From positions 1-43,139 of IMG/VR virus record IMGVR_UViG_3300046829_000127: a stretch of 43,139 nucleotides of DNA. One strand, given 5' to 3'. This document shows, piece after piece, positions 19,581 to 32,573 of the stretch; positions within the stretch are counted from its first letter, which is position 1, and each line of letters opens with the position of its first letter. The translations under genes were made by a program, and so were the position numbers. Below the pieces are notes generated by a model. That model saw only the letters and a program-made list of their open reading frames with translations, was not told the DNA's origin and did not search any database. The DNA comes from a virus.

Positions 19581-20543
19581 TTGGTTACCGTGACCCCGGA
19601 CCCGGTAGCCGCCCACCTTCAGGATATGGCGTTGCGGGGCCTGGCGGCGGGGACGACGATTTATGCCCGGTCGCGGACACTGGCCCGGCTGCAGGCATGG
19701 CTCACGGTGTACGGTGAAGACCTGCCGGGCTGCCGGGAAGGCGAGCGCTCGACGCCCGGGGCAACCCGGGTAATCCGGTCCGGCAGCCCGGCAGGCGCGT
19801 CATCGTTGCTTGACGCGTCGCATGCGGATCTGGTGGCGTGGCGCACCTCCCTCCACCTCTCACCCCGCTCCATCGCCTCCTACTGTGACCAGGTCCGCGA
19901 GTTCTACGCCTGGCTGGTCCGGTCGGAGTACCGGCCAGACAACCCCGCCCTCGGCCTCCCCGTGCCCAGGCTCGGCCGGTCACTCCCGCGTCCCATCAGC
20001 GAGGCTGACCTGCAGCGGGCGCTCGAGTCGGCGCCCCGGCGGGTGCGGCCGTGGCTCGTCCTCGCCGGCTGGGGCGGCCTCCGCGCCAAAGAAATCGCGC
20101 TGCTGCGCCGCGAGAACGTCGCCGACACCGTCCGGCGGCCGTTCATCCTCATCGCCGAGGACGCCACCAAGGGCCACGCCGAGCATGTCGTCTGGATGAG
20201 CACCTTCGTCCTGGCGGAGTTGCGGGCGTACGGGATGCCGTCGAGGGGCTGGATGTTCACCCGCCATGACGGGCGCCCCGGCCCGAACTCACCGGGCTAC
20301 GTGTCGAAGCTGTGTAACCGGCAGCTCCGGGCGTCTGGCAGCGATGCGACGCTGCATCAGCTGCGGCACCGGCTCCTGTCGCTGCTGTATGAGCAGACCC
20401 GCGATATCCGGCTGGTTCAGGAGACGGCGGGGCACCGGTCGCTGGAGACGACGCAGATTTATACGCGGGTGTCCGATAGCGGGGCGGCGGCGGCGATGGA
20501 CGCGATCCCATCACCAACCCGTTTGCGGGTCGTGGGAGAGTGA
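19581..20543 (+). CDS. int: Tyrosine recombinase / phage integrase
   Basis: 320 aa from TTG 19581, six bases after GGAG; an in-frame GTG at 19590 is an alternative. Residues about 10-115 are the SAM-like core-binding domain. Residues 135-310 are catalytic, with Arg168 (G-G-L-R), Lys197, His259 and Arg262 (H-Q-L-R-H), His285 (A-G-H-R) and nucleophile Tyr294 (Q-I-Y-T-R-V) all present. It inserts and excises the phage at attP/attB. It lacks the extra N-terminal arm-binding domain typical of lambda Int (about 320 versus 356 aa), so it resembles simpler XerC/D-like integrases. This indicates a temperate phage. Confidence 0.95.
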   Translation: MVTVTPDPVAAHLQDMALRGLAAGTTIYARSRTLARLQAWLTVYGEDLPGCREGERSTPGATRVIRSGSPAGASSLLDASHADLVAWRTSLHLSPRSIASYCDQVREFYAWLVRSEYRPDNPALGLPVPRLGRSLPRPISEADLQRALESAPRRVRPWLVLAGWGGLRAKEIALLRRENVADTVRRPFILIAEDATKGHAEHVVWMSTFVLAELRAYGMPSRGWMFTRHDGRPGPNSPGYVSKLCNRQLRASGSDATLHQLRHRLLSLLYEQTRDIRLVQETAGHRSLETTQIYTRVSDSGAAAAMDAIPSPTRLRVVGE

Positions 20544-29107: not shown

Positions 29108-29632
29108 ATGCCGCAAACCATTGATGAACGACGCGAATATGAACGCCAGTGGCGTGTCCGCAACCGGGAGAAGATCCGCGAATATCAGATCCGCAACCGG
29201 GAGAAGATCCGCGAGCAGAGGCGTGCATGGAGGGCCAGGAATCGCGAGTACATCCGCGCCAGCCATCGCGCAGATTACGCACTGGACCCAGAGAAGTTCC
29301 GGATCCGGAACATCCGTGCGAGACATGGCGCCGGACCTGAACTCATCCTTGAGCTATGGCAGGCGCAGGACGGCAAATGCTATCTGTGCGGCGAGGATGT
29401 TGATGTCGACAAAGCGTACGTTGACCACGATCATTCGTGCTGTCCCCTGAACAAGTCATGCCCGGCATGCCGCCGGGGACTTGCGCATCCCAAGTGCAAT
29501 ACGTTCATTGGTTATCTCGGAGATGACCCTGAGCGGTTCAGGTTCATGGCCAATGCGCTCGAGACAGCTAAGGCGGCGGCTGCCGGACGCATAGCAGAGA
29601 CACGGCAGCGGCAGCTCATGCTTCCGCTCTAG
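29108..29632 (+). CDS. Recombination endonuclease VII homologue, antisense insert in the tail operon
   Basis: 174 aa from ATG 29108. The N-terminal 65 residues are highly charged helical repeats (R-N-R-E-K-I-R-E-Y-Q-I twice). The C-terminal part has the endonuclease VII zinc site C-Y-L-C-G and C-P-A-C-R-R-G-L with catalytic Y-V-D-H-D-H. Such enzymes cut branched DNA and many act as mobile homing nucleases. It lies rightward between leftward tail genes and meets the chaperone stop with a 4-base convergent overlap. Confidence 0.85.
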   Translation: MPQTIDERREYERQWRVRNREKIREYQIRNREKIREQRRAWRARNREYIRASHRADYALDPEKFRIRNIRARHGAGPELILELWQAQDGKCYLCGEDVDVDKAYVDHDHSCCPLNKSCPACRRGLAHPKCNTFIGYLGDDPERFRFMANALETAKAAAAGRIAETRQRQLMLPL

Positions 29633-29772
29633 TTGCCGGCAGCTTTGCCTTCAAGGTAGTCGATCAGTGACTCGAATTCCGACTGGTCTAGGAGGGGGAT
29701 TTCCCAGGGCCGGATTCCGAGGACTTCGGCGAACGCGCCGATGTAGCGGTCCCGGTCGTGGGCGAGGGACCG
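29629..29772 (-). CDS. Frameshift-encoded C-terminal extension of tail assembly chaperone (GT-like)
   Basis: 47 codons read in the -1 frame after the slip at 29770-29777, giving R-S-L-A-H-D-R-D-R-Y-I-G-A-F-A-E-V-L-G and ending at TAG 29629. R-Y-I-G-A-F-A-E-V-L-G-I-R-P-W-E-I-P-L-L is a typical GT-type extension of actinophage chaperones. The fused product would be about 144 aa, versus 124 aa without slippage. The fusion would bind the tail tube protein during tail assembly. Confidence 0.8.
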   Translation of the reverse strand, partial: RSLAHDRDRYIGAFAEVLGIRPWEIPLLDQSEFESLIDYLEGKAAGN

Positions 29773-30062
29773 GGGGTCAGGCTGGTAGGGTCCGCCTCGC
29801 CCTCGTCGGCCTCGATCTTCACCTCGGCGAGGTTCACCTCGGCCGCGCCAGACAGGATGTCCTCGAGCGGGATCCCGCGGCCGTCGCGGTGCCACACCAT
29901 CCAGATGAATCCGCACAGTGCCCGCACCGACCCGGCGCCGAGCTGGGTTTCCCACTCGGCATACGGCATCTTCAGCTTGTCCTCGATGGTCAGCGCCTCG
30001 AGCATCGGCCGCTTGCCCTGATCGAAATCGAACATCTCGCCGTTGATGGTGACCTTAGCCAC
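29688..30062 (-). CDS. Tail assembly chaperone (G-like)
   Basis: 124 aa from GTG 30062, chosen over GTG 30068 because AGGAAGG lies about 7 bases before it. M-L-E-A-L-T-I-E-D-K-L and A-L-C-G-F-I-W-M-V-W are typical of the phage tail chaperone fold. It lies between the tail tube and tape measure genes, as in lambda G/GT. The last 27 residues after the slip site are Ser/Pro/Thr-rich, and a fraction of ribosomes should switch frame to make the longer form. Confidence 0.85.
   Translation of the reverse strand: MAKVTINGEMFDFDQGKRPMLEALTIEDKLKMPYAEWETQLGAGSVRALCGFIWMVWHRDGRGIPLEDILSGAAEVNLAEVKIEADEGEADPTSLTPGPSPTTGTATSARSPKSSESGPGKSPS
29770..29777 (-). promoter_or_regulatory. Programmed -1 frameshift slippery site
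   Basis: On the minus strand ACC CCC GGT sits at codons 96-98 of the chaperone. A peptidyl-tRNA on CCC can re-pair with the preceding CCC, shifting to the -1 frame that encodes the conserved extension. A second in-frame GGT-CCC follows but is less apt. No canonical X-XXY-YYZ heptamer is formed. Confidence 0.65.
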
Positions 30063-30097
30063 TAGCACCCTTCCTGATATCGCGATACCGTGATGGC

Positions 30098-30256
30098 ATG
30101 GATGATCTGCAGGCAGTCCCTATCCGGTTCCCACGGTCCTTGTATGACCGGCTCCGGAAAGCTGCCTTCGACAAGCGGATCCCGATGACCCAGATCGTCA
30201 TCGCCGCAGTAGAGAAAGAACTCTGTCATGAAGACCCTGCGCCAGACCCTCGCTGA
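30098..30256 (+). CDS. Ribbon-helix-helix (Arc/CopG-like) protein
   Basis: 52 aa from ATG 30098. V-P-I-R-F-P-R-S-L-Y-D-R-L-R-K-A-A followed by I-P-M-T-Q-I-V-I-A-A-V-E-K-E-L is the standard strand-helix-helix of CopG/Arc repressors. It lies antisense to the late operon and its last 29 bases overlap the start of the 108-aa gene, like an antitoxin-toxin or regulator-target pair. It may repress its own small operon. Confidence 0.75.
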   Translation: MDDLQAVPIRFPRSLYDRLRKAAFDKRIPMTQIVIAAVEKELCHEDPAPDPR

Positions 30257-30554
30257 TCACGGCCACGACATCCAGAAGCCAACCGCGCTGCGCGTCGGAC
30301 GCCCCGGCCACCGCATTGCCGTCGACGGCGGCGTCATCACCCTGAGCAAGCAGGACTATCCCGCCGCAGGAGCCCGGGCCGAGGTGAGCGACTTCCGGTC
30401 CGGGCTCGCCGGCCGTAAGCACACCACCGACCTCACCGTCACCCTGCCATCCGGTGAGGTACTGATCTGGCATGAGACGAACACCGGCACATCAGCCCGC
30501 CTCGTGCACAACCAGGCCACGCGGTTCGCCGCCGCGGTGAACAGCGCTCGCTAG
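30228..30554 (+). CDS. Unknown 108-aa protein paired with the RHH gene
   Basis: From ATG 30228. Alpha N-terminus, then beta-rich middle (H-R-I-A-V-D-G-G-V-I-T-L, then D-L-T-V-T-L-P-S-G-E-V-L-I-W-H-E), and an Arg/Asn/Ala-rich helix at the end. It does not resemble RelE, MazF or PIN toxins by eye. It converges on the tail tube gene with 4 bases of overlap. The pair is a candidate moron expressed from a prophage. Confidence 0.6.
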   Translation: MKTLRQTLADHGHDIQKPTALRVGRPGHRIAVDGGVITLSKQDYPAAGARAEVSDFRSGLAGRKHTTDLTVTLPSGEVLIWHETNTGTSARLVHNQATRFAAAVNSAR

Positions 30555-30973
30555 GTGTTCAGGCCGCCCCACCCGGTGTACCGCTGCACGCGGGACGCCG
30601 CGACCCACGCCGACTTGGCGTTGACCGCCGACGCGACCGCGCCGTCCGCGGAGAAGTCCGGCAGCACCGTGCCGAACCAGTACACGTTGGGGTCGAGGGT
30701 GATGTTCGGGTAAAGGTAGAAGTTGCGGGGCAGACCGTCCACGGCCGCGACATACGTCTGGGAGGTCACGTCGTCCATGAACCCGGTGAAGTCCCCGGAC
30801 GCGTCCGGGAGCCCGGAAACGTACACCTTGTTGGAGTCGCCGAACGCGGTGACTTCCTGATGGTCGACGGTCATCGACATCGTCCACGCCGCCATGAAAG
30901 CAACGGGTGATGCGGCCGCGGCCGTGGTCAAACCCAGGTAAACCACACCATTCCTGCCGTGGATTCGCGCCAT
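30551..30973 (-). CDS. Major tail (tube) protein
   Basis: 140 aa. A beta-rich protein with M-A-R-I-H-G-R-N-G-V-V-Y-L-G, D-H-Q-E-V-T-A-F-G-D-S-N-K-V-Y-V and F-T-G-F-M-D-D, patterns of actinophage tube proteins. It sits before the frameshifted chaperone and the tape measure as expected. The glycosyltransferase gene immediately upstream (17-base gap) makes it a candidate for glycosylation. Confidence 0.8.
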   Translation of the reverse strand: MARIHGRNGVVYLGLTTAAAASPVAFMAAWTMSMTVDHQEVTAFGDSNKVYVSGLPDASGDFTGFMDDVTSQTYVAAVDGLPRNFYLYPNITLDPNVYWFGTVLPDFSADGAVASAVNAKSAWVAASRVQRYTGWGGLNT

Positions 30974-30991: not shown

Positions 30992-31999
30992 TTACATTCT
31001 GACTGGCTGCCGGTCAAGCAACCGGAGCAGCTTCCGTGCGTTACTGTCGAACGTCCTGTCCGCGACCGCGGCGCGTGCCATCCGCGCCGCCTCGCCGCGC
31101 ATCCCGTCATGGGCCAGCCACCACCGCAGCTTCTCCGACGCATCCCCCGCGTCAGTGAACACGGGGAGCATCGGCAGCAGGTCATCGCCTTCGGGCCGGG
31201 AGTCCCGCAGGTAGAACAGGCCGCAGGCAGCCTGCTCCACCTCACGAGGACCCATCGCCCAGCCGAGGCCCTGGTTCTCGTCCTCGGCTTCGGTGCGGTA
31301 CAGGTTGATGCCGGCCTTAGCGGACCGGTACAGGTCAGCGGTCTGCTCGTTGTCGAAGCACCGGTCGATCTCGTGGACCAGGTACGGATGCAGCGGCGAG
31401 TCTTCCTGCAGCCCCATCCAGTTCCCCGCCAGGATCACGTCGAGCCCGGCGAGGTCCATATCGGCGAAGAATTTCCGCCGCGACGGGAACCCGGTGCCGG
31501 AGAACCCCAGGTCGCATGCCATCTCCGGGACCGGCGGCCCGGGGTGATGCAGGACGGGACGGTAAGCATGCGGCATGTATTCCGACGGGGCGATGGCACG
31601 GTACCGGCCAATGTCGACGGGGTCGTTGACGAGGCACAGGTCGGCGTAGGCAGCCATCTTCAGCTGCATCTCAGTCTGGTACGGGCCTTCGGTGAACAGC
31701 ATGACGATCTTGTGGCCCCGGGATTTCATGACCTCAAGGACGAACGGCGGGGTGAAGAACGCCGACGTGCACAAGATGATGTCGGGCCACCACCGGTAGC
31801 AGGCGCCGAGCAAGCCGTCGGCGGCGAGCTCGACGGCCTGGTCCCGGTCGAGTGCCTTCTTGAACTGGGGATGGCCGTCGTCGGAAACATGCCCGGTTTC
31901 GAGGAACGCCGCGTCATAGAAGGTGAGCCGCCGGTCGAGGTTGTAGGTGACGACTTTTTCCCCGGCGGCGGTGAGGGCTTCGGCCCAGCCGTTGAACAC
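30992..31999 (-). CDS. Glycosyltransferase (CgeB / GT4-like), N-terminus frameshifted
   Basis: 335 aa from GTG 31999. The N-terminal Rossmann half (V-V-T-Y-N-L-D, D-I-I-L-C-T-S-A-F-F) and C-terminal G-P-R-E-V-E-Q-A-A-C-G-L-F-Y with E-G-D-D-L match CgeB-type glycosyltransferases. Sequence upstream of GTG still codes in the same frame for N-F-S-V-A-D-V, expected after H-P-G-P in this family. That missing start, M-R-W-L-L-T-H-P-G-P, is present at 32054-32025 but in another frame, because TTAGCCG (32018-32024) intervenes. The gene may thus be a 5' truncation or an on/off variant. It may modify the tail tube. Confidence 0.8.
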   Translation of the reverse strand: MFNGWAEALTAAGEKVVTYNLDRRLTFYDAAFLETGHVSDDGHPQFKKALDRDQAVELAADGLLGACYRWWPDIILCTSAFFTPPFVLEVMKSRGHKIVMLFTEGPYQTEMQLKMAAYADLCLVNDPVDIGRYRAIAPSEYMPHAYRPVLHHPGPPVPEMACDLGFSGTGFPSRRKFFADMDLAGLDVILAGNWMGLQEDSPLHPYLVHEIDRCFDNEQTADLYRSAKAGINLYRTEAEDENQGLGWAMGPREVEQAACGLFYLRDSRPEGDDLLPMLPVFTDAGDASEKLRWWLAHDGMRGEAARMARAAVADRTFDSNARKLLRLLDRQPVRM

Positions 32000-32069: not shown

Positions 32070-32573
32070 TCAGCGGGGGCCTGATGCCGCCTTCCGCTTC
32101 TGATACATGGCGGCGTAGTGCTCTCGCCTGCCGCCCTTTGCGTTTCTGGCAACGTCCCGGGCTCGCACGCATGTCCGGCATTCACGCTTGCCGTTCTTGC
32201 GGACAATCGTGTTATCCGGCGTGAACTTATGTCCTTTGCCGCAGTGATTCTCGCGGACCAGGACGGCGGTCGGATGCATGCCGCGGCGTACGTTCTCGCC
32301 GCGAGTGACGGGTTCCAGGTGCTCGGGGTTGACGCACCCGCGGTTCCGGCACAGATGGTCGATGACCAGTCCGTCCGGGATCGGGCCGACGTAAAGCTCA
32401 TAGGCGATGCGGTGAGCCGTGGTCGGCCGCCACTTGAGATCCACCACGGTACGGATGCTGAACAGCGCGTAGCCATTCTGCTGGAAGTGGGCGCCGCGCC
32501 AGCCCCAGCATTCGCCGGGCGCGCCCTTGATGACCTTGCTCTCGAACCGGTCGCGTACTGATCTCGTGGCCAT
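32070..32573 (-). CDS. HNH endonuclease with C-terminal zinc fingers, probable homing gene
   Basis: 167 aa. C-W-G-W-R-G near 22-27, then V-I-D-H-L-C-R-N-R-G-C-V-N-P-E-H-L-E-P-V near 70-90 is an HNH_3 active site. It has a C-terminal treble-clef-like pair (H-C-G-K-G-H, C-R-T-C). It interrupts the tail operon between the terminator-like gene and the glycosyltransferase, whose 5' end is disrupted, suggesting a mobile insertion. Unlike the endo VII gene it is on the late strand. Confidence 0.85.
   Translation of the reverse strand: MATRSVRDRFESKVIKGAPGECWGWRGAHFQQNGYALFSIRTVVDLKWRPTTAHRIAYELYVGPIPDGLVIDHLCRNRGCVNPEHLEPVTRGENVRRGMHPTAVLVRENHCGKGHKFTPDNTIVRKNGKRECRTCVRARDVARNAKGGRREHYAAMYQKRKAASGPR

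Follow-up and report, generated by a model that had tools for sequence, protein, structure and literature searches.

A probably self-repressed antisense moron cassette with exchangeable cargo in the late tail operon of an actinophage

Two small overlapping genes that run against the tail genes of an actinophage probably form a self-repressed accessory cassette, a moron with exchangeable cargo set within the late tail operon of a temperate phage. Morons are a known kind of module, of which the self-repressed form with exchangeable cargo is a variant; a literature search did not find such a form, with readable operators in tail slots, already described.

The window analysed is positions 1-43,139 of the IMG/VR virus record IMGVR_UViG_3300046829_000127, with a G+C content of 68%. 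Its structural genes are actinophage-like and lie on the − strand, and the phages matched by its terminase are mostly those of Mycobacterium, Gordonia, Arthrobacter and Rhodococcus; identity in the best of these matches is about 35-44%. An integrase is encoded (Phage_integrase match at 19584-20540, E 8.5e-17), which makes it probable that the phage is temperate.

RESULTS

The cassette lies between a tail-assembly chaperone gene (29688-30062, − strand), homologues of which are found near the major tail protein (MTP) gene in loci L003-L009, L027 and L028, and the MTP gene itself (30551-30973, − strand), assigned by its match to PHROG 10528 (major tail protein, E 2.4e-8) and by an MTP profile. 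Both cassette genes are on the + strand, antisense to these neighbours. The first, at 30098-30256, encodes a 52-aa ribbon-helix-helix (RHH) repressor of the Arc/CopG type, and the second, at 30228-30554, an orphan protein of 108 aa; they share the 29 bases 30228-30256, an overlap given in the initial annotation and returned exactly when the ORFs were re-read. The 108-aa frame occupies the whole space from the RHH gene to the MTP stop. The boundary of the cassette is the palindrome CTAG (30551-30554), where the stop of the 108-aa gene on the + strand overlaps that of MTP on the − strand, and in L003, L006, L109 and L118 the antisense genes stop at the offset from MTP that is seen in the window. 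A classical moron has its own terminator; we found no intrinsic terminator in 29600-30900, and no RNA family in the cassette region.

Some features of the surrounding operon may be noted here. The chaperone frame is followed by an overlapping second frame (29629-30062, − strand), and a similar second frame is present in L027; a programmed frameshift is expected of tail chaperones, and matches this layout. Directly upstream of the MTP gene is a glycosyltransferase-like gene (30992-31999, − strand; Pfam PF13524), and a gene of similar size sits at the corresponding place in most relatives examined. A search of GTDB genomes with MTP found no relatives.

The 52-aa RHH gene is certain, because it has homologues in L129 (phmmer E 1.3e-8, with 18/37 residues identical) and L132 (E 2e-7) and its product has an RHH fold. 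The AF2 model of the protein, made with a small alignment (pLDDT 77), contains two helices, at residues 13-26 and 30-43, and the strand-helix-helix fold of about 45 residues that characterizes the RHH superfamily. The closest solved structures returned by Foldseek are Arc, ORF56, AmrZ and CopG (probability 0.9-0.99, TM 0.6-0.7, with E-values >0.05 for so short a chain), and there are weak Arc-like matches among the PHROGs. The earlier description of the protein as CopG-like is thus right at the level of the superfamily, the nearest solved folds being Arc and then CopG. As modelled this is a bare RHH protein, having ~9 residues after the second helix, which ends at 43 of 52. A search of viral contigs with an RHH-pair profile found nothing. 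The relative in L132 (antisense, at about 1700-1860) lies within a stretch (1250-2300) that is dense in short GCC-rich repeats, and is without a clear cargo gene.

The 108-aa frame is probably a gene. Its codon score (0.302 bits/codon, GC3 0.85) is higher than in any of the other five frames, and among the window's shadow ORFs of 80-140 aa only 4% score as high. The predicted protein is basic (pI 10.5) and contains no hydrophobic stretch of 19 residues and no obvious membrane segment, and in contrast to most other cargo described below it is neither membrane-bound nor secreted. No match was found in Pfam, PHROGs, NCBIfam or PADLOC, in phages (tblastn), viral contigs or genome contigs, or in about 60 whole virus records and the ORFs of all fetched loci. 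Sequences of the PDB gave only insignificant matches, as did plasmids (tblastn, E 4-8), where the best two fall inside large hypothetical proteins. A single-sequence AF2 model (pLDDT 41) provides no usable fold, and so no backing for the beta-rich character given in the initial annotation; a PH-like or CcdB/MazF-like fold was considered, by eye only. Position and codon usage make this protein the probable cargo of the cassette.

A predicted promoter for the two genes is provided by the sequence TACCGT (30086-30091, + strand), a −10 element of the form TANNNT placed 6 nt before the ATG of the RHH gene, from which a leaderless antisense transcript would arise. TANNNT is the actinobacterial −10, and its spacing of 6-7 nt from the start codon agrees with the way in which leaderless transcripts of mycobacteria are laid out (PMC3898074). 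A strict sigma-70 consensus scan found no promoter, and the promoters of M. tuberculosis likewise yielded no −35 consensus (PMC3898074). The element is present 6-7 nt before the start in 7/7 cassette-type genes as against 1/16 sense genes, and is expected by chance at this spacing at 0.19% of positions. Opposite orientation and an own promoter, by which morons are recognized, are both apparent here, the latter as the TANNNT 6 nt before the ATG. A TANNNT element also lies 6-7 nt before the start of an HNH endonuclease gene (32070-32573, − strand), which may thus also be transcribed on its own, without a leader, from inside the late operon.

Three contiguous 8-bp boxes, TGATATCG, CGATACCG and TGATGGCA, at 30075-30098 (+ strand) overlap the −10 element, and we propose these as the operator of the cassette, with the consensus YGRTRNCR. 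At the corresponding place L129 has the boxes CGGTAGCG CGGTAGCG TGATGGCA. The identity at period 8 is 14/21 in both the window and L129, with at most 9 matches at any other period from 4 to 13, and over the 43-kb window so high a score at period 8 is seen only four times. Between the window and L129, 19 of the last 24 bases before the ATG agree, compared with 9/33 just upstream. For this RHH subfamily the candidate 8-bp operator is drawn from these two related examples only. A 10-bp palindrome TATCGCGATA (30078-30087), unique in the window, lies within the proposed operator and was first assumed to be the binding site, but was then dropped; the 8-bp boxes are the better account of the site, since they are shared by L129, which lacks a perfect palindrome.

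The match between the window and L129 is in part promoter rather than operator, since a string containing CGTGATGGCATG, the 3′ part of the proposed window operator, also precedes and starts an unrelated gene in L180-L182. A search with the pattern CGNTANCGTGATGGCATG recovered L129 together with unrelated genes. The sequence TACCGTGATGGCATG, which holds the proposed leaderless promoter, is present in identical form before an unrelated 120-aa gene in three other virus contigs, L180 (2044-2061), L181 and L182.

How widely does this arrangement occur? Relatives were gathered through MTP, chaperone and tape-measure searches. In L027, where the chaperone is 81% identical to that of the window, three antisense genes occupy the corresponding gap, one for a membrane protein of 117 aa, one for an RHH of 46 aa and one of 64 aa. 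Elsewhere the antisense cassettes combine a 46-aa RHH with a 116-aa protein (L028), or a 45-aa RHH with a membrane protein of 69 aa (L007/L009) or 74 aa (L118). L131 has a lipoprotein and a 46-aa RHH, and in L129 a 55-aa RHH related to that of the window is followed by membrane proteins of 76 and 67 aa. The partners of the cassette RHHs are small membrane proteins, lipoproteins and nucleases, the commonest cargo being membrane proteins and lipoproteins. Small antisense genes are also present in L003, L004, L006, L008, L109 and L111, without an RHH.

An RHH HMM built from eight cassette RHHs revealed further antisense examples in L174, L125/L172, L140, L121, L137, L146 and L114; most of them occupy a second slot that follows the chaperone, and that of L137 passes the Pfam RHH_1 cut-off. 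Of 62 non-redundant loci that extend 1.5 kb or more beyond MTP, 14 have an RHH of 45-57 aa 0-2 kb behind MTP, and it is antisense in every case. No sense-strand RHH was found at E<1 among the ORFs of the fetched loci (about 1.6 Mb), and the only RHH away from the MTP region in these loci is that of L132, which is also antisense. The searches began from tail genes, and therefore these numbers show that the RHHs are biased in strand and recur at the slot; they are no measure of abundance over whole phage genomes. Genes of 54-55 aa in L002/L117 and of 69 aa in L151 look RHH-like by eye, and are uncounted because the HMM missed them.

A second RHH subfamily can be distinguished by its upstream sequences, where GGTAC boxes occur exactly 11 bp apart. 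Such pairs are found in L007, L028, L118, L114, L140, L146, L121, L125, L131 and L174. In 1.56 Mb the 11-bp spacing accounts for 23 placements (palindromic sites being counted on both strands), compared with 0-12 for every other spacing, and nearly all of the 23 lie at cassettes of this subfamily. These candidate operator boxes are therefore well supported at the level of sequence, and the 11-bp pairs provide a ready-made search pattern for second-subfamily cassettes.

The cargo of the slot between MTP and chaperone differs among relatives whose MTPs are 51-75% identical, so that the insert is non-conserved, in the manner of a moron. The cargo of L118 and that of L129 look related by eye, yet their RHHs are of different types; the opposite holds for L007, L028 and L118, where the RHHs are alike and the cargo differs. 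To judge from these comparisons the parts are therefore exchanged between relatives, and cargo exchange is seen in L129, L118, L007, L028, L027, L131, L125, L174, L146 and L114. The recurrence of RHH-bearing antisense cassettes with their promoter-operators, in the corresponding tail region of related phages, bears out the suggestion in the initial annotation of an accessory cassette, antisense to its neighbours, that carries an RHH regulator of its own. The further suggestion of a dedicated regulator-effector pair is not supported, as the 108-aa protein has no homologue in the collections searched and related RHHs occur with other cargo.

These exchanges bear on whether the two genes might form a type II toxin-antitoxin module, as had also been suggested, with the RHH protein as antitoxin and repressor and the 108-aa protein as a toxin of a new family. 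An RHH gene placed first, an overlapping gene of ~100 aa and a leaderless transcript are typical of toxin-antitoxin pairs of M. tuberculosis (PMC3898074), and RHH domains are frequent in antitoxins (PMC4803016). However, what comes after the RHH relative in L129 is a pair of unrelated membrane proteins; a single RHH type occurs with several cargos, and among related RHHs the partners are unrelated membrane proteins, lipoproteins or nucleases. The ~9 residues beyond helix 2 of the window protein are too few for a toxin-binding tail, and the RHHs of the other cassettes, at only 45-57 aa, are similarly short. Given in addition that the 108-aa protein matches no toxin family in Pfam, PHROG, NCBIfam or PADLOC, we consider a toxin-antitoxin pair unlikely.

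It might alternatively be supposed that only the RHH protein is functional and influences the late tail operon, for instance as a roadblock or by way of antisense transcription, and that the 108-aa frame is incidental. The proposed operator does sit within the late transcription unit, some shadow ORFs (the 4% given above) match the frame in codon score, and an antisense RNA (STnc6030) within a tailspike gene can exclude phages (PMC7067206). Yet in the relatives well-scoring cargo genes adjoin the RHH frame, before or after it and with 4-bp overlaps, the boxes overlap the −10 element of the cassette itself, and many relatives have no RHH at the slot. We regard this as the least probable of the explanations considered.

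DISCUSSION

We return to the self-repressed cassette with exchangeable cargo, our preferred reading, and to how it might function. Its promoter would oppose the tail genes, giving a leaderless transcript that begins at the ATG of the RHH gene (30098). The RHH protein, a dimer as Arc is, would occupy the three 8-bp boxes side by side; because these extend over both the −10 element and the start, its binding would repress its own operon. Such repression would keep the opposing promoter from disturbing the tail genes in the lytic cycle, and expression of the cassette in the prophage would be low and steady. The 108-aa cargo would be translated by coupling from the overlapping message, and would alter the lysogen, most plausibly by protecting it against other phages. 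The structure would be modular, the RHH and operator type recurring and the cargo being swapped. Position, strand and recurrence can be read from the sequences themselves, together with the exchange of cargo, the RHH fold, the boxes shared upstream and the placement of the −10 element; DNA binding, repression, expression in the lysogen and benefit to the host are what we infer from them.

Several known systems share elements of this arrangement. Moron loci characteristically lie antisense among lytic genes (PMC7067206), and STMMW_20121 of the Salmonella prophage ST64B is likewise antisense to late genes, has its own promoter, is dispensable and is exchanged between relatives (PMC7067206). The window cassette differs in bringing an RHH repressor of its own, with an operator that can be defined; the region scanned showed no terminator for it, and its expression is predicted. 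In actinophages, small genes expressed in lysogens are known to defend them (PMC6426596, PMC6426606). A parallel in setting is offered by the lysogenic defence genes 30-31 of the mycobacteriophage Sbash, a pair of small genes that adjoin a likely tail gene and are expressed in the lysogen from their own promoter (PMC6426596), as we suppose for the window cassette. Of the two Sbash products, gp30 contains a DUF4747 domain and gp31 is membrane-located, with no RHH reported (PMC6426596), whereas the 108-aa protein has no match in phage records. The Tab moron of phage JBD26, expressed from the prophage, blocks the assembly of invaders' tails (PMC10884400), and is likened to the 108-aa protein only as a small moron protein.

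On the regulatory side, the Arc, CopG and omega repressors (PDB 1par, 1ea4 and 1irq) offer the RHH fold of ~45 aa and tandem short boxes placed over a promoter. Arc is distant from the window protein, at about 22% identity. Dimers of the omega repressor are aligned on short repeats (PMC4803016), and these are 7-bp heptads compared with the 8-bp boxes of the window, where binding is predicted. Type II RHH toxin-antitoxin modules share the gene order, overlap and leaderless transcript, and differ in the tail, the conserved partner and the toxin family.

The acr-aca operons described in PMC9410906 also comprise a small orphan protein and a dedicated autorepressor in one short operon, and Aca autorepression is described there as widespread. 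By analogy the 108-aa protein would block a bacterial defence early in infection, after which the RHH protein would shut the operon down. However, the Aca families named in that source are helix-turn-helix proteins encoded after acr, and here the regulator is an RHH protein that is encoded first, not last. No Acr relative of the 108-aa protein was found in the general sequence and family collections listed above, and a cargo of membrane proteins and lipoproteins is better suited to the protection of a lysogen. A counter-defence operon of this kind is improbable, to about the same degree as the toxin-antitoxin pair. The self-repressed lysogenic cassette remains the explanation that we favour.

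The accessory genes of phages are hard to recognize and often have no homologues, and aca genes have served as the search bait for anti-CRISPRs. Should a tiny repressor and a readable operator prove common to these cassettes, the two could provide similar bait for unknown phage-defence and host-modification genes in actinophages. More tentatively, the cassettes may constitute a previously undescribed mobile antisense class in uncultured actinophages, in which a minimal RHH of 45-57 aa and a tandem-box operator (8-bp or 11-bp spacing) form a socket for exchangeable host-modifying genes at two slots of the tail operon. Were this so, the 108-aa protein would be a founding member among new lysogen-protection or counter-defence proteins. 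The self-repressed cassettes would also offer a testable answer to how an opposing promoter is tolerated inside the tail genes, in that each insert carries its own repressor.

Homing nucleases may spread the antisense cassettes, because endonuclease VII or HNH-like genes recur in or beside those of L002, L007, L028, L119, L137, L140 and L151. In the window, an antisense gene of the endonuclease VII type (29108-29632, + strand; Pfam PF02945, E 2e-13) occupies the second slot, between the chaperone and tail completion genes.
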